DNA of 28,018 nucleotides, taken from IMG/VR virus record IMGVR_UViG_3300004369_000106, positions 1 through 28,018 of that record; one strand, given 5' to 3'. Numbering within the stretch: the first letter of the stretch is position 1; the number at the start of each line of letters is the position of its first letter. Origin of the DNA: a virus. Below, one piece after another: positions 3,424-11,583 of this stretch. A program made the position numbers and the translations under genes. The notes beneath the pieces are model-generated. The model was not told where the DNA came from. It saw only the letters and a list, made by a program, of their open reading frames with translations, and made no database searches.

Positions 3424-3813
3424 TTACGCGGGTTCCCCGAGGTACTCTTCGAGTATTTTTTTTGCCGCGTCGTAGCCTTTGGCCACCGTTGCACGGTACC
3501 CACGCGCCTCCAACCGCTCCTTCCATTCCTTTTGTGAGGCGGAAACCCTCCCGCCCTTGTCCCGTTTTAATTCAATGGCGAGACCGTGGTGGCCTTCTCG
3601 GGGTTCGTAGATGAAGACGTCGGGGAAGCCCTTTTTGTACCCCGTCTCTTTGAGGCGTACCGCTTCCCTCATGCTCGTCCGTGCGCCCCCCGCGGAAGCA
3701 CACCACAAGACGTTCGGGTGTTGGGTGTCGAGGTACTCGGCGAAGCGTCGTTGGATGTCGTATTCGCTCCCTTCGCCGTGGCGGTTGTGTCGTGTCCTTT
3801 TACGCCTCGACAC
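3424..3813 (-). CDS. VRR-NUC domain nuclease
   Basis: The preferred start is GTG at 3813 (129 aa; VSRRKRTRHNRHGEGSEYDI), giving a 14-base overlap with the amidase. The ATG at 3897 would overlap it by almost 100 bases. The core matches VRR-NUC proteins of the PD-(D/E)XK superfamily: E-x-D-I-Q-R-R-F at the first helix, then GFPDVFIYEP...GLAIELKRDKGGRVSASQKEW, that is, the PD, the E-x-K pair (ELK) and the Q-x-x-W helix. Phage members are proposed to cut branched DNA or help packaging and host takeover. It is the last gene of the late block. Alternative roles in that superfamily cannot be excluded. Confidence 0.85.
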   Translation of the reverse strand: MSRRKRTRHNRHGEGSEYDIQRRFAEYLDTQHPNVLWCASAGGARTSMREAVRLKETGYKKGFPDVFIYEPREGHHGLAIELKRDKGGRVSASQKEWKERLEARGYRATVAKGYDAAKKILEEYLGEPA

Positions 3814-4474: not shown

Positions 4475-7400
4475 TTACGAAGCCGACACCGCGAACGAAA
4501 ACCGAGTCGGAGCCGAACTCAAATTGGTAGTCGACAAGCGGCCCAACATGATGAAGACAAGGTCGCCCGCTCGAAGTGTGAGTCGAGTGACGTTCAAGTC
4601 AAGGTCGGTGAACACACCTTGAACCAAGTTTCGAGTGGAGACGGTACCGAGTCGGGTGAGTGTTATGGCGTTCGTGCTACCGCTTGGACGACGGCCAACC
4701 CACGCCGACAATATGAGGTCGTCTCGTGACACCTCCGCCAACACTTGGGCCTTCACCGTGAGGTCCGTGGCATTGGTCGGAAGAATGAAGCCCGCGGCGG
4801 CCGTGTCCGCTTGGATTGAATTGGCCGACGAAGACATTGTCGCGTCCCATGTATCGCTTGCCCACCCTTCGGTTCGGTTGCCGTAGTAGTACGACCGCCC
4901 TTTGAGAAGGTTGGTTCGTACGGAATGAGAACCGAGGGTCACAACGCTCGAACCACCCGTGGCGGGTGTGGAGAATGTGTACCGCCCGCTCCCGTCCGTC
5001 GTCAATACTTGGCCGCTTGTGCCGTCGGGGATGTCGTCGAGGGTGCCGTTGGTTTGGAGCGCAATGAGACGCGGGGTTGACGTGGAGTTGGGGAGGCCCG
5101 TGAGCTTGTTGGCCAACCGTTCGACGTCGTCAAGGTCCACGGCTTGCGTGATGGATATGAGGTCCGTTTTGCTTTGTACCAAGGTCACCTCGTCGTTCAC
5201 CTCTTCGACCGCATCCAATACGGAGACGTAGTTGGTAAGGCCGTGCGGGTTGCCTTGTCCGTTGCCTCCCCCGTTGTTGCCCGAAGAAGACGTCGAACCC
5301 CCGTATGTAAAGCCCGTGGGGACGACGGTGTCGTCGTGCGACAAAACAGTCCGCGACAAGACAACGGCGTCGAGGTCGTAGGTACATGGCCCCGCCGTGA
5401 AGGTCAAGGCCAACGGGACCAAGACGTCTTCAACGTCTCCCACCGTGCTACAATTGTGAGCGAAGGCGGTGGTGAAGTCCAACGGGTCGTCGACGTTCTC
5501 GTCGTCCCACTTTGGAACAATGGTCCCCCGTTGCGTCATGAGCGGCCGCCCTCGTTGGTACAAGGTTTCACGCGCCACCACTTGGAGGTTGTGCGCCCCG
5601 TCGTGGTCTTGGTCCACGGTGTCCGTGATGGAGTGCCACGCCTCACCCGAAAGGGTCACCACTTGCGAGACGTTGTTGTCGTGGGTGTACAACGCTCCCG
5701 AGGCGTTGGGGAGTCCGTCTTCGGTTTCGGAGACGCCCAAGACCGTCGACCCAAGGTCGAGGTACTCGGTGTTCTCGTCACCCTCGGCGAAGTACAACAC
5801 GTCCGCGTCCTCGTCGGTGGAGTCCACCGTGACACGGAAACCCGTGACAAAGTCGGCGGGCGCGTTTTGGTAGTTGGGCGCGATGTTGTTTCCGTTGTGG
5901 TCGTATTGGACGGCGTAGGAGGCGAAGAAGATTTTGTCGAGTTCGGGGAATGTTTGTCGCACCCCTCCGATTCTTGTAATGACAATACGGTCCACCGTCA
6001 CCTCGACACCGTCGTACGAGGACGAGGTGTTTGGAAGGGGTGCCGTTGTAAAGTCGAATTGTTGTTCGAAGCGGCGGTCTTGCGTTTCGTTGACGCGGTA
6101 TTCGAACTCGTTGTTGCCCGTGGCCTTAATGTGAAGACCTCCCACACGGCTCCAACCGTCGTACGTCTCGACGGACGCTTCGGGGTTCGAATTGGTCCAA
6201 GGGACGGCGACTTCGTAGAACCCTTCTTCCGTGGTCCAAACGGGGTTTGGGAAGTTTACTTCATTGAATGCGACGTCGGGTTGTGTACCCACGGGGAAGT
6301 CGATGTTGGTGTTCTCCGAGTCCATTGAATGTTCGGAGACGTAGTACAAGTTCCCCACCTTCACCTTGAAGCGAAGAATGATTCGCGCGCCGATTCGGTC
6401 AATACCGAGGTCGTTGTACGCGGCTCCCGTCAATGCGCTCCCGAATTCTCTTTTGAGTTCACCCGTGTCGTACAACCCTCGAAGGTTGAGCGTTTGCCCT
6501 TCCGAGACGACGAGGTCGTCATTGGTCCACGTTCGCCCCGAGTACCCGTTGTTTGGGTAGTCGATGTAAAAGAAGCTTCCCGTGGAGCCGAACACCGTTT
6601 GGCTTCCCGCCTCGTCGTGAGTGATGGACGCCCGTTTGATGGGTAACAAGTACGAGTTGGCCCACCCATTGGCCAAGGCGTGGTCGACTTCGATGTCCGT
6701 TTTGAAGTCCACATTTTCCGCCGTTGCCGTGGGGAGGTAGTTGCTTCCGTTTTGCGCGCGTCGGATGGACTCGGACGCCACCTTGAACCTCGGCCATTTT
6801 TGAACGGCCAACGTGGTCGACCAATTCAAGGCGTTCGGAGGGAAGAACCAAAAGGCGAAGTCGTTGAGAAAGATTCGACCCCCGAAGGCCGTGGTGATTT
6901 GTTCGAGAACGTCGAAGCACGAGTTGAAGTTGTCGGGGTAGTGTGCGCGCCTCCCAAAGTCGTCTTCGCGGTCTTTGTTGGTGGTGTAGAATGCTTCCGC
7001 CGTCGTGAAGGTTTGTTCCAACATGGTCGTCGGGAACGGGTCTCCTTCGGTCGTTGTGAAGTCCGCGTCGGCGTGGGAGGCGTTGAAGATGTCGACGACC
7101 TCTTTGAGTTGGTATTCGGCGTCCAACCAAAAATTGGCGGTTGGGATTTTGTTGAGGCAAATGGACACGAGTTCGGCCATTGTCTTCTTCCCCAAGTAAG
7201 CGTCCCCCGCGTTGTTGAACGGGATGTTGCGGAGGCGGTTAAGACCACACGAAGCGCGGACGGTGAACAAGTACGGACGGTCTTGCAACTCGTACTCAAT
7301 GGCCTCGTGGTTCAAGACACCCACCCACCACGGCTTCCAATGGGTGCCTCCGTCGTCGTAGTAGACGGCCAACCCGAAGCGGGCGTCGTCGTTGTCACGG

Positions 7401-7708
7401 ATTGCGCCTTTGAGAAGTTCAAGGCCCGCCGTGTCAATTACGAAGGTGACTTCACAAGACGAAGGGATGACGGAGGCCCCAATGTGGTCGGTGGGACCGT
7501 CCCACGAAAGGGTGAACCCCTCTTCGGTGAGGTCCGCTTCGTGACACCCTACGGAGGACAACCCAAAGTCGCCGTACCCGTTGATGTCCGAGTCGATGAA
7601 TTCGACCCGCCAATGGCGTCCCGTTTGGTCGTAGAACTCCCCGCAAATGCGGGCGCGCCAATTGCCCGTCACAGTGTTAAGGGCTTGGGAGATGGGTGAG
7701 TCGGTCAT
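4475..7708 (-). CDS. Large tail tip / receptor-interacting protein, 1077 aa
   Basis: This is the largest gene of the window, directly after the tape measure, the usual place of the distal-tail and tail-tip proteins. The first 330 residues (AEDL-type beta segments, HWRVEFIDSDINGYGDF, PWWVGVLNHEAIEYE, RPYLFTVRASCGLNRLRN) look like a baseplate hub domain. The middle holds several beta-sandwich-like stretches. Around 790-860 there is a Gly/Ser/Asn-rich linker (YGGSTSSSGNNGGGNGQGNP) and then a short coiled coil (VLDAVEEVNDEVTLVQSKTD). The final 130 residues, starting at TLGSHSVRTNLLKGRSYYYG, look like a beta-rich receptor-binding head. Fusion of hub, linker and head in one chain is common in Bacteroidota phages. 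Exact homology is not established. Confidence 0.7.
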   Translation of the reverse strand: MTDSPISQALNTVTGNWRARICGEFYDQTGRHWRVEFIDSDINGYGDFGLSSVGCHEADLTEEGFTLSWDGPTDHIGASVIPSSCEVTFVIDTAGLELLKGAIRDNDDARFGLAVYYDDGGTHWKPWWVGVLNHEAIEYELQDRPYLFTVRASCGLNRLRNIPFNNAGDAYLGKKTMAELVSICLNKIPTANFWLDAEYQLKEVVDIFNASHADADFTTTEGDPFPTTMLEQTFTTAEAFYTTNKDREDDFGRRAHYPDNFNSCFDVLEQITTAFGGRIFLNDFAFWFFPPNALNWSTTLAVQKWPRFKVASESIRRAQNGSNYLPTATAENVDFKTDIEVDHALANGWANSYLLPIKRASITHDEAGSQTVFGSTGSFFYIDYPNNGYSGRTWTNDDLVVSEGQTLNLRGLYDTGELKREFGSALTGAAYNDLGIDRIGARIILRFKVKVGNLYYVSEHSMDSENTNIDFPVGTQPDVAFNEVNFPNPVWTTEEGFYEVAVPWTNSNPEASVETYDGWSRVGGLHIKATGNNEFEYRVNETQDRRFEQQFDFTTAPLPNTSSSYDGVEVTVDRIVITRIGGVRQTFPELDKIFFASYAVQYDHNGNNIAPNYQNAPADFVTGFRVTVDSTDEDADVLYFAEGDENTEYLDLGSTVLGVSETEDGLPNASGALYTHDNNVSQVVTLSGEAWHSITDTVDQDHDGAHNLQVVARETLYQRGRPLMTQRGTIVPKWDDENVDDPLDFTTAFAHNCSTVGDVEDVLVPLALTFTAGPCTYDLDAVVLSRTVLSHDDTVVPTGFTYGGSTSSSGNNGGGNGQGNPHGLTNYVSVLDAVEEVNDEVTLVQSKTDLISITQAVDLDDVERLANKLTGLPNSTSTPRLIALQTNGTLDDIPDGTSGQVLTTDGSGRYTFSTPATGGSSVVTLGSHSVRTNLLKGRSYYYGNRTEGWASDTWDATMSSSANSIQADTAAAGFILPTNATDLTVKAQVLAEVSRDDLILSAWVGRRPSGSTNAITLTRLGTVSTRNLVQGVFTDLDLNVTRLTLRAGDLVFIMLGRLSTTNLSSAPTRFSFAVSAS

Positions 7709-7711
7709 GTT

Positions 7712-10480
7712 TTAGCGTCCTCGGTTTCGTTTTGCTCGTTCTTGTGACAAGACAATGTCCGCTCCTCGGATTCGTCCCGCCACGTTCATGTTGTTGCGGC
7801 CTTGGCCTTGTATTTGGCCCACGAATTGCCCCATACGTTCGAAGGGGATGACCAATTCACGCCCCGAGGGATTGTCACCAATGAGGGCGAGGGTTGGTCC
7901 AAGGGTCATTCCACCGCGGGCAAGCTTTGGAATTCCCGTCATGAGCGAAGCGATGGCGGCTTTGAGGGCCGCGGCTTTGGCCACGCCCGCCACGCCACCC
8001 GTTGCGACGTTGTCGGGCGTCGGGGACATGGCATTCATGACCGCTTGGGCGATGGCCGCTTTGATGGCGCGCATGGCAATTTGTCCCAACATTTGGGTGG
8101 CCGCTTGGCCGAAGTTGCCCACCTCACCCGTTGCCGACTTGAACCCAAGTTCAACGAGGTCCGCAACGGCCGCGCCCGCTTCTTGTGCGGAGAACAACGC
8201 TTCGTTCGCTTCCTTTTGTTGGTCGGTTGTGTCGGCGAGGAGCGCGCGGAAGGCTTCCGCTTGTTCCATGAGTTCGGCGAACTTCTCGGTGTTGGCAAAC
8301 TCGGGGTCGGCCAATATGGAGTCGGCCAACGCTTGGTCGAGGGCGGAGAGTGCTTCTTGTGCCGTTTGGAGGTCCGTGGTAATGCCAAGGCCTTGTTGAA
8401 CGGCGAGACGTTGGAGGGTCTCTTCGAGTTGCGTCAACGGCGTCTCGACTTCTTCGCCCTTGGTGGCGAACTCACCCATGAGGGTAACAAGGTTACCCAA
8501 GGCGGCCTCCGACCCTTCGAAGTCGCCCTCCACAATTTGGCGGATGGCGTTTTCAATGGCCGAGAACTTGTCGGACGAGAGGTCTTTGGACAAGACGTTC
8601 TCCAACTCCCCGATGTCGGTGAGTGTCTTTTGGAGTTCGGCTTGGATGCTTTCGAGGGTCTTGGTGGTTTTCGTACCACCTCCTTGTACGTCCACGACCA
8701 CGTTGACTTTGGAGTCAAGGTCGGCGGACTTTTCGTCGAGGGCTTCTTGTGTCTTTTGGAGTTCGGCCGTGAGTATTCGTTCGACCTCTTCGAACGCGGT
8801 TTGGGGGTCTACTCCGTCGCCGAAGGGGTCGAGGGAGTTGATGAGGTCAAGGGTAAAGGTTGAGAAGTCGACGCCCGCAAACTCCGAAAGGAGGCCGAGG
8901 TTTATTTGTCGCGCGGCTTCGTCGAGTTGACCCGTGGCGGGGTCGAACACGGGAACAAGTCCAAGTTCGAGGGCAACGAGGGGGTTGTTGGCGGCTTCGA
9001 GGGCGGCTTCGTTGAACTTCTCGAACGCCTCGGGGGAGATGTTTTCGAGTTCGGTTCGGAGGGCGCGGGTTTGTTGTTGGAGCGCGCCAATGGTCTCACC
9101 TTCCGCTTCAAGGGAGAAGGCCTCACGAAGTAGGGCGGCACGGGCGGCGAGTTGTTTGACACCTTCGGAGAGAAGGCCGTTTTGTAGTTCGATGGTCTCG
9201 TTGAAGTCCAACACCGCGTCGTTGGCGATGTACGAGTCCCGAGACATGGAGTACAACGCACCACCCAAGGCCAACGCGCCCGCAATGACGACGCCGTACG
9301 GGTTGGTGGTCAAGAATACCGAGGCCGCTTTGAAGGCTCGAATGGAGTTTTGTACGCCTCGAATCATGCCTCCAATGGCCGAGGTGACGGGGCCAAGGGC
9401 CGCGGCAAACAACCCAAACTTGACGACGCTTTGTTGGGTCTCGGGAGACAACCGTGAGAAGGAGTCGGCGAGGTCTCGAATACGGTCCACGACCTTCGTG
9501 ACCGTAGGGGCCAAGGCGTTGCCAAGGGCGATTTGTGCGCCCTCTACGGCCGAACGCATGGCGGCGAGACCACCCGAGGCGGTGTCGTCCATTTCGGCGG
9601 CCATTTCCTTCGCTCGTCCCCCACTCCTTCGGAGTTCTTTTCCGAGGTCTTCGAGGTCTTCGAGGTTTTTTCCGAAGATGGGTTGGAGAATGGCGGCGCG
9701 CTTCCCGAGTACTTTGATTGCGTCCGTATACGAGAGGGAGCCGTTTATGAGACCCGTGAAGGTCCCTTTGACGTCAACACCCGCGGAGGCGAGTTCGGAG
9801 AACGCCATTTTGAGTTTGGTTCCCGCGTCGCTTCCCGCGATGCCATTGTTGGCGAGGACACCAAGAAGGGCGGTCGTCTCCTCCAACGAGAACCCGAACT
9901 CGTTGGCAACGGGTCCCGCGTTCTTCATGGACTCCGAGAACTTGTCGAGGTCGAGCGCGGAAGACGCGAACGAGGCCGCCATGATGTCGGCGACGGACGA
10001 GGCGTCGTCGGCCGAGAGGCCGAATTGTGCAATGGTTTGGCCAACCACCTCCGCCGTTGGTCCGAGGTCTTGTCCGAATGCTTGGGCAAGGGCCAAGGTC
10101 GATTCGGTCGCCTTGGTTATCTCCTTCGAGGAGAGGCCGAGTTTGGCGAATTCAAGTTGGAGGCTTGAAACTTGGGAAGCCGAGAAGACCGTGGACGAGC
10201 CGAGGTCGCGGGCGTTCTTTTGAAGGGCGGCGAATTCTTGGCCCGTCGCACCCGACACGGCCTTCACCTTCTTCATTGCCAACTCGAAGTCGGCGGCGAC
10301 CTTGAACGAAGAAGCCCCAATACCTACGAGTGGGGCGGTAACACCTACGGAGAGGCCACGACCAACACTCGACAAGGTGTTGGCGGTGTTGCGGACTTTA
10401 CGTTGTGCCGCGGTCAACCCCCGCTCAAATTGCCGAGAGTCGAGGCCGAGGACTACCGAGAGGAGGGATTGACGTGCCAT
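7712..10480 (-). CDS. Tail tape measure protein (TP901 family core)
   Basis: This 922-residue protein opens with a helical N-terminus (LTAAQRKVRNTANTLSSVG). The TP901 core signature follows at about 60-270: FKVAADFELAMKKVKAVSGA, STVFSASQVSSLQLEFAKLG, ELASAGVDVKGTFTGLINGS. Hydrophobic segments follow at about 360-410, then long coiled-coil stretches, and a typical tape-measure end, RGGMTLGPTLALIGDNPSGR with ELVIPFERMG. It sets tail length; at roughly 1.5 angstrom per residue the tail would be of the order of 130-140 nm, an estimate only. Its ATG lies inside the end of the tail chaperone T frame (28-base overlap). Confidence 0.93.
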   Translation of the reverse strand: MARQSLLSVVLGLDSRQFERGLTAAQRKVRNTANTLSSVGRGLSVGVTAPLVGIGASSFKVAADFELAMKKVKAVSGATGQEFAALQKNARDLGSSTVFSASQVSSLQLEFAKLGLSSKEITKATESTLALAQAFGQDLGPTAEVVGQTIAQFGLSADDASSVADIMAASFASSALDLDKFSESMKNAGPVANEFGFSLEETTALLGVLANNGIAGSDAGTKLKMAFSELASAGVDVKGTFTGLINGSLSYTDAIKVLGKRAAILQPIFGKNLEDLEDLGKELRRSGGRAKEMAAEMDDTASGGLAAMRSAVEGAQIALGNALAPTVTKVVDRIRDLADSFSRLSPETQQSVVKFGLFAAALGPVTSAIGGMIRGVQNSIRAFKAASVFLTTNPYGVVIAGALALGGALYSMSRDSYIANDAVLDFNETIELQNGLLSEGVKQLAARAALLREAFSLEAEGETIGALQQQTRALRTELENISPEAFEKFNEAALEAANNPLVALELGLVPVFDPATGQLDEAARQINLGLLSEFAGVDFSTFTLDLINSLDPFGDGVDPQTAFEEVERILTAELQKTQEALDEKSADLDSKVNVVVDVQGGGTKTTKTLESIQAELQKTLTDIGELENVLSKDLSSDKFSAIENAIRQIVEGDFEGSEAALGNLVTLMGEFATKGEEVETPLTQLEETLQRLAVQQGLGITTDLQTAQEALSALDQALADSILADPEFANTEKFAELMEQAEAFRALLADTTDQQKEANEALFSAQEAGAAVADLVELGFKSATGEVGNFGQAATQMLGQIAMRAIKAAIAQAVMNAMSPTPDNVATGGVAGVAKAAALKAAIASLMTGIPKLARGGMTLGPTLALIGDNPSGRELVIPFERMGQFVGQIQGQGRNNMNVAGRIRGADIVLSQERAKRNRGR

Positions 10481-10821
10481 TGGGCGATGAGGTCTTTTTG
10501 TTCTTGTGTCACTTCATGACCGCGGGAGGTTTTGTTTTCGGCGATGTGGTACGGGTTGAAGTCGTCGACCGTGTAGGCTTGGGGCCTTCGCTTCGGGTCA
10601 CGGTTCGAGTTGGCCATGAGTGCCATGACGCTCGAAGTATGTTCCCACAAGCGGCGGTCGCGGTCGTTCTCTCCCTTGACGACAAAGGCGAACTCCGCGA
10701 ACGTGAGGTCCCAAAATTCCCGAGGGCGTAGACCAAGACCCAAGCCGACCTCGTACAAGGCGGCCCAAGAATTGAGAGTTGAGGGGACGAATTCGTCTTC
10801 GCCCCCTCTTACTCGTTTCCC
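10453..10821 (-). CDS. Tail assembly chaperone, T part (read by -1 frameshift from G)
   Basis: This frame has no need of its own start: it is open from the slippery site at 10821 to the stop at 10453 and is in the -1 frame relative to the upstream G gene. The translation continues from G as RVRGGEDEFVPSTLNSWAAL then YEVGLGLGLRPREFWDLTFA, ending in HVNPSSR. An ATG at 10758 could give a 101-residue free form. In long-tailed phages the G-T fusion binds the tape measure through T and recruits tail-tube subunits through G. The predicted fusion is 234 residues (114 from G plus 120). Position directly before the tape measure fits exactly. Confidence 0.85.
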   Translation of the reverse strand, partial: GKRVRGGEDEFVPSTLNSWAALYEVGLGLGLRPREFWDLTFAEFAFVVKGENDRDRRLWEHTSSVMALMANSNRDPKRRPQAYTVDDFNPYHIAENKTSRGHEVTQEQKDLIAQWHVNPSSR

Positions 10822-11156
10822 TCCGTCTCCCCCACTTCTACACCGAGGGACTCACCAATGGACGAAGACAACACGTTGAACTTGTCCATGTCCGCGCAAA
10901 CGGCGGCGGCGACGTGGTCGAATTTGACTTCGGGACGGTCTTGGCCCGCGAAGTCCGCGGCGTTCATGATGCCCCAAAAAACCACGCATGGCACAAACTC
11001 CAACGGGTTCTTCGAGACGAAGTCGTCGAGGTCTCCCAACTCAATACCGCGGTCTTGGGTCATGAGTCGAAAGGCGTTCATGTTGAGGAGGACTTCGTGT
11101 TCTTGTCCTCCAAGTGTGACGGACGTTTGCCCGCGGAGTGTGTTGCCTTTGGCCAT
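10809..11156 (-). CDS. Tail assembly chaperone, G part
   Basis: This 115-residue protein (MAKGNTLRGQTSVTLGGQEH) has N-terminal beta strands followed by helices around ALRLMTQ-like NAFRLMTQDRG, ELGDLDDFV and EFVPCVVFWGIMNAAD, as in tail chaperone proteins that coat the tape measure before the tube forms. It ends in an acidic tail (GVEVGETEGNE). The stop codon at 10809-10811 comes two codons after the slippery heptamer, so most ribosomes should terminate here and a fraction shift into T. It follows the tail tube gene by ten bases. Confidence 0.85.
   Translation of the reverse strand: MAKGNTLRGQTSVTLGGQEHEVLLNMNAFRLMTQDRGIELGDLDDFVSKNPLEFVPCVVFWGIMNAADFAGQDRPEVKFDHVAAAVCADMDKFNVLSSSIGESLGVEVGETEGNE
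10815..10821 (-). promoter_or_regulatory. -1 ribosomal frameshift slippery site G GGA AAC
   Basis: In the G frame the codons read GAG GGA AAC GAG TAA, so the heptamer G GGA AAC fits the X XXY YYZ rule with the right phasing. After slipping back one base the frame continues without a stop to 10453. I did not fold the downstream RNA for a stimulatory structure. Confidence 0.88.
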
Positions 11157-11166
11157 TGGTTAAGAA

Positions 11167-11583
11167 TTAGGAGAAGGTGCCTTCGGAGAGGTTGCTACAA
11201 TCGAAGGACACGTTGAACGAGGTGGAGTCGTTCAAAGGCGCGGTCTCTTCGAAGCTTGTGATGTAGGCGTCGACTTGAATGTATGGGTCACCCGTGACAC
11301 CCGAACCGTATTGGAGGGTGAGTTGGGTTTTGTCAATTACCGCGTCAATGAGTTCGGTGCGGCCTACGTTGTCGTACGCCGTGAGACCTTCGACGGTAAT
11401 GGTGACGGATTGTTGCCCTGGAAGGACCGTCCGCGCGCCGTCGTTGTCTTTGCATACGGTTTCAATCATCTCGTTCGAGATGTTCAAGGTGGCGTTGGTA
11501 CCACACGCGACGAGGTCGTACGACGCGCCGTCTTGGATGTACACGCCGACGAGGTTTCCTTTTACGGTTCCCGTTGTTGCCAT
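11167..11583 (-). CDS. Major tail tube protein
   Basis: This 138-residue, beta-rich protein (MATTGTVKGNLVGVYIQDGA) contains ATLNISNEMIETVCKDNDGA, QQSVTITVEGLTAYD and ends NVSFDCSNLSEGTFS. The layout corresponds to the TP901-1-type major tail protein: an early strand pair, a 'defined for K/D-N-G' loop, then TITVEGL and a long loop before the final strands. It lies just before the tail chaperones, the conserved place of the tube gene. As the tube polymerises in many copies, it should be among the most highly translated late products. Confidence 0.85.
   Translation of the reverse strand: MATTGTVKGNLVGVYIQDGASYDLVACGTNATLNISNEMIETVCKDNDGARTVLPGQQSVTITVEGLTAYDNVGRTELIDAVIDKTQLTLQYGSGVTGDPYIQVDAYITSFEETAPLNDSTSFNVSFDCSNLSEGTFS

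Follow-up and report, generated by a model that had tools for sequence, protein, structure and literature searches.

The G and GT proteins of phage lambda arise by a -1 frameshift at the heptamer G GGA AAG. Details of this tail chaperone frameshift are also given in a review (PMC5009743, citing Xu, Hendrix and Duda 2004), which treats G-T frameshifting as a widely conserved trait of long-tailed dsDNA phages. G-T frameshifting at the same heptamers is reported there as well for the haloarchaeal tailed viruses HCTV-1, HCTV-2 and HCTV-5 (PMC5009743), which have archaeal hosts and are likened to the present locus by description.

The locus analysed here lies in a viral sequence of 28,018 nucleotides, referred to as the window. 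It shares with lambda the gene order (tube protein, G, T, tape measure), a T without start codon in the -1 frame, a heptamer just before the G stop and a T related to the lambda T family (PF06223). It differs from lambda in that its heptamer ends in AAC instead of AAG, its T has a TAC_6 domain in addition, there is a strong and conserved hairpin 6 nt beyond the heptamer, and the sequence of its G matches none of the Pfam chaperone families. We put the probability at about 95% that ribosomes at this locus undergo a programmed -1 frameshift of the lambda G-GT class. This reading is drawn from signals in the sequence, namely the heptamer, its phase, the open -1 frame, conservation, the hairpin, the absent start codon and the family of T.

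As the initial annotation had proposed, the two apparently separate genes are best read as G and GT, which is supported by the conserved heptamer and the startless T. Across a whole group of uncultured phages, whose hosts are most likely Bacteroidota, an annotation as two genes would thereby be corrected to G plus GT. The mechanism itself is known; a partial literature search found no paper on G-T frameshifting in Bacteroidota phages and no prior report of this lineage, of the fixed, covarying hairpin or of the turnover of the heptamer. The group also offers a natural series for the evolution of frameshift signals, with heptamers that are swapped and never lost, overlaps that shrink to 13 nt, a hairpin that is present in one clade and mostly absent in its sister, and GTA-type relatives in which an ATGA or GTGA overlap takes the place of the heptamer.

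Gene order and protein families

The features of the locus are collected in Table 1. Pfam and PHROG matches place G/T between the genes for the tail tube and the tape measure protein. Further downstream, past the tape measure gene, a 1077-aa protein encoded on the minus strand (4475-7708) has no PHROG match at E<=0.1; from its position, it is perhaps a tail tip or receptor-binding protein.

Table 1. Features of the G/T locus and its neighbours in the window
Feature	Position	Strand	Evidence or remark
Gene G, short tail assembly chaperone, 115 aa, 0 frame	11156-10809	minus	ATG to TAA; homologues; predicted fold
Slippery heptamer G GGA AAC, in 0-frame phase	10821-10815	minus	Canonical in-phase heptamer in 38/38 clear relatives
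6-nt spacer GAGTAA, heptamer to hairpin	10809..10814	minus	Contains G stop TAA 10811-10809
Likely stimulatory RNA hairpin	10781..10808	minus	11-bp stem, 10808-10798 with 10791-10781, 6-nt loop
T region, -1 frame, presumably reached by the slip, 120 residues	10453..10815	minus	R (CGA starting 10815) to stop
TTG, sole conceivable T start, judged not real	10756..10758	minus	Inside conserved motif, not conserved
Major tail (tube) protein, directly upstream of G	11167..11583	minus	PF06199 E=2.7e-9; phrog_1407 E=2e-22
Tape measure protein, directly downstream, 28-nt overlap with T end	7712..10480	minus	PF10145 E=1e-36; phrog_1533 tape measure E=5e-98

The T of the window matches PF09550 (Phage_TAC_6) above the Pfam cut-off with E=1.1e-8, and more weakly the lambda Phage_tail_T family (PF06223, E=0.0027). 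Among its relatives, 17 of 19 match PF09550 and 16 of 19 match PF06223 at E<=0.01, the best Phage_tail_T match having E=3.3e-6. A PDB sequence search with T returned nothing significant.

G has eight close homologues with 57-65% identity and no Pfam or PHROG family match; one member of its alignment matches TAC_11 (GTA-gp10, E=6e-5). A structural model of G, built from 19 sequences, has a pLDDT of 83. Its predicted fold matches predicted phage protein structures at E 2e-4 and weaker; several of these are annotated as tail assembly chaperones and some as tail tube proteins, and N15 GT appears further down the list (E 0.06). Sequence and fold searches of the PDB with G gave nothing significant. 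Neither G nor T of the window has a protein match among 50,697 deposited phage genomes.

The slip site and the start of T

The 3' end of G is read as GAG GGA AAC GAG TAA. The X of the heptamer thus occupies codon position 3, which is the required phase, and a single sense codon (GAG) lies between the heptamer and the stop. In the -1 register, the frame extends without interruption from 10851 to a stop ending at 10453 on the minus strand, and it overlaps G by 43 nt. Slippage would join 114 residues of G to 120 of T in a 234-aa GT with the junction TEGN-RVRGG (junction peptide EGNRVR). The codons and the translation agree with the phase, the open frame and the 234-residue product given in the initial annotation. 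Its description of the site as ideal holds in part: the heptamer is canonical and in phase, but the word overstates the case for bacterial ribosomes, since E. coli prefers AAG, the shiftier choice, as the second codon of the slippery heptamer (PMC5009743). It is with mammalian ribosomes that G_GGA_AAC ranks among the shiftiest heptamers (PMC5009743).

Heptamers of the form X XXY YYZ occur at 8 of the 5254 in-phase positions of the phage's main genes, and GGGAAAN or AAAAAAN at two. At these frequencies, the 43-nt overlap would contain a heptamer of this form by chance with a probability of about 0.018, and one of the strong type with a probability of about 0.005. A chance origin is negligible because such a heptamer is conserved in all 38 clear relatives. 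These relatives were gathered by searching IMG/VR and GTDB genomes; they come from IMG/VR and one MAG and represent 25 distinct junctions, the window being excluded from the count, as was one contig (L073) with A-runs of uncertain status. Each of them carries an in-phase canonical X XXY YYZ heptamer within the G/T overlap. It is GGGAAAC in most relatives, GGGAAAG in the L045-L053 group and in L026, AAAAAAG in L037 and L039, GGGAAAT in L057 and AAAAAAC in the distant L058; the type of heptamer turns over and slipperiness is always kept. In five distinct relatives (L005, L034, L035, L021 and L026) the T frame opens just 3 nt before the heptamer and the overlap is 13 nt. Since such an overlap holds little other than the heptamer and the stop, the heptamer is the sole workable place for a shift in these five.

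The distribution bears on two other explanations of the broken frame. A one-base difference would join both frames, as expected of a sequencing error or the decay of a once-continuous gene, but the identical register, heptamer and stop recur in 38 contigs from many metagenomes, distant ones included, and this explanation is vanishingly improbable. Transcriptional slippage on a G/A run might also join the frames, and two relatives, L037 and L039, do carry a run of A there (GGAAAAAAG). In GGGAAAC, the usual site, however, no run exceeds three bases, which is too short for polymerase slippage, and the phase and the downstream hairpin are typical of ribosomal slippage, so that a transcriptional origin is extremely unlikely.

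A programmed ribosomal shift is also in keeping with the lack of a start codon for T. None of the table-11 starts (ATG, GTG, TTG, CTG, ATT, ATC and ATA) is present in the window between the slip site and the conserved W17 of T. No conserved T start was found among the relatives, and none of them has an ATG in the T frame near the junction, except for one codon inside T of the distant L058. The TTG at 10758 was rejected as a start. It encodes L20 of T, downstream of the conserved G4, P11, S12 and W17, and initiation there would remove conserved residues; it lies within a conserved motif (TWADLY in relatives), and the TTG itself is not conserved.

Alternatively, ribosomes could re-initiate close to the G stop, at this TTG or, in relatives, at a CTG or GTG over the stop, and make T as a protein of its own with no fusion to G. 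Many close relatives have TGA directly after the heptamer, creating CTGA or GTGA and with it a possible rare-start overlap. Such an overlap is absent from the window and many other members, and L029, L040, L077 and the sister group have CTAA, GTAA or GTAG junctions without such a start. Re-initiation appears to operate in GTA-type contigs, found among L059-L076, which encode TAC_11 followed by a short TAC_6 (three of them checked by Pfam). Their T begins in the -1 register within ATGA (12 contigs) or GTGA (3), in L059-L069, L071, L072, L074 and L076, a count that excludes the truncated L070 and L075, which could not be read in the same manner; the slippery heptamer is absent at these junctions. 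The GTA-type pair (TAC_11 is GTA-gp10) shares with the window the TAC_6 domain of T, its position and the -1 register, but its T is only about 55-69 aa long from the match start and resembles the window T only over the TAC_6 core. The initial annotation had regarded homologues that lack the site and keep a T with its own start as evidence against frameshifting; such homologues exist only in this distant branch with a short T, and the 38 clear relatives keep the site. For the window, re-initiation is very improbable: no start codon lies between the slip site and W17, the TTG fails for the reasons given above, and the invariant slippery heptamer and the hairpin at 6 nt would be left unexplained. 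Taken together, the two branches suggest that T can be expressed interchangeably by frameshifting or by coupled re-initiation.

The downstream hairpin

Folding of the RNA downstream of the heptamer, which had been proposed as a check, yields a strong hairpin. It is covarying and fixed in its spacing, and it was overlooked in the initial annotation. In the window, as in the 11 distinct sequences closest to it, the stem begins exactly 6 nt past the heptamer, and its length across these 12 sequences is 11-12 bp; in the window it comprises 11 uninterrupted base pairs (GAGGGG...CCCCTC) with a loop of 6 nt. The minimum free energy of the window hairpin has a z of -3.38 against dinucleotide shuffles and of -2.8 against synonymous recoding of the same T peptide, with 0.5% of the synonymous versions folding as well. 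The synonymous z is below -1.2 in all of the 12 sequences but L029 (-0.4). Several stem pairs change among these sequences and are still paired: pair 6 (GC/GU/AU), pair 7 (GC/AU/GU), pair 8 (CG/UG/GU/AU) and pair 11 (AU/GU/CG/UA). The pairs were counted sequence by sequence, because the automatic DNA alignment puts the 3' arm of L005, L034 and L035 in the wrong place. Judging from pairs that change while staying paired, the structure seems to be selected beyond the T peptide. An Rfam scan of the window gave no match.

The sister clade (L041-L053) mostly lacks the hairpin, with L041 as an exception. In L041 (2978-3037) the GAGGGG hairpin is missing and a different strong stem is found further downstream (z -3.8), which is perhaps an independent stimulator.

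An upstream SD-like stimulator, as in dnaX, was considered and rejected, as pairing with the anti-SD is generally no stronger than after synonymous recoding of the stretch. The corresponding fraction is 0.46 in the window and lowest in L032 (0.044), and some relatives have purine-rich stretches upstream.

Host and proposed mechanism

Upstream of the start codons in the window, the sequence is less SD-like than at random positions (mean -1.2 vs -3.7 kcal/mol). Such depletion is what one would expect for Bacteroidia, as their ribosomes do not recognise SD sequences (PMC9976891). The sole genome match is a Bacteroidetes MAG, and the integrase of the window carries Phage_int_SAM_5 and Arm-DNA-bind_5 domains, which are common in Bacteroidota. 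The Bacteroidota host named in the initial annotation is likely on the strength of the SD depletion, the MAG match and the integrase domains.

Should the ribosomes of the host be SD-blind, this site would offer a natural test case for frameshifting that takes place without stimulation by an SD. We consider it possible, but rather doubtful, that what drives the G-T shift in this SD-depleted lineage is a 3' hairpin at a strict position together with a eukaryote-like heptamer of the AAC type, and not an upstream SD-like stimulator, the recoding signals having adapted to the host ribosome. A hairpin as a simple rule of SD-blind hosts was rejected, since the sister clade L041-L053 is mostly SD-depleted too, yet mostly without it.

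Under the frameshift reading, most ribosomes would terminate at the TAA of G, releasing the chaperone of 115 aa. A minority would pause at the hairpin 6 nt downstream, with GGA in the P site and AAC in the A site; these ribosomes could then re-pair on GGG AAA and, with the stop avoided, translate 120 more codons to give GT. By analogy with lambda, the G part would coat the tape measure protein and the T part would recruit the tail tube subunit, which is encoded just upstream. The slippage, its frequency, its stimulation by the hairpin and the way in which G and GT share the work are steps that we infer.

Three further observations concern individual sequences. The genes of the distant L058 are strongly SD-led (mean -8.8 kcal/mol), and its G stop is still immediately preceded by A AAA AAC; given the strong SD leads, it probably comes from a different host phylum. 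In L077, the contig from the Bacteroidetes MAG, T shows an abrupt divergence in sequence near 3600-3629, close to the contig end; with a stated contig coverage of 0.06, this is probably an assembly-end artefact. Finally, the tape measure gene of the window contains an in-phase A AAA AAC at 9671-9665 (minus strand), after which the -1 frame is open for 180 codons; this heptamer is probably incidental.
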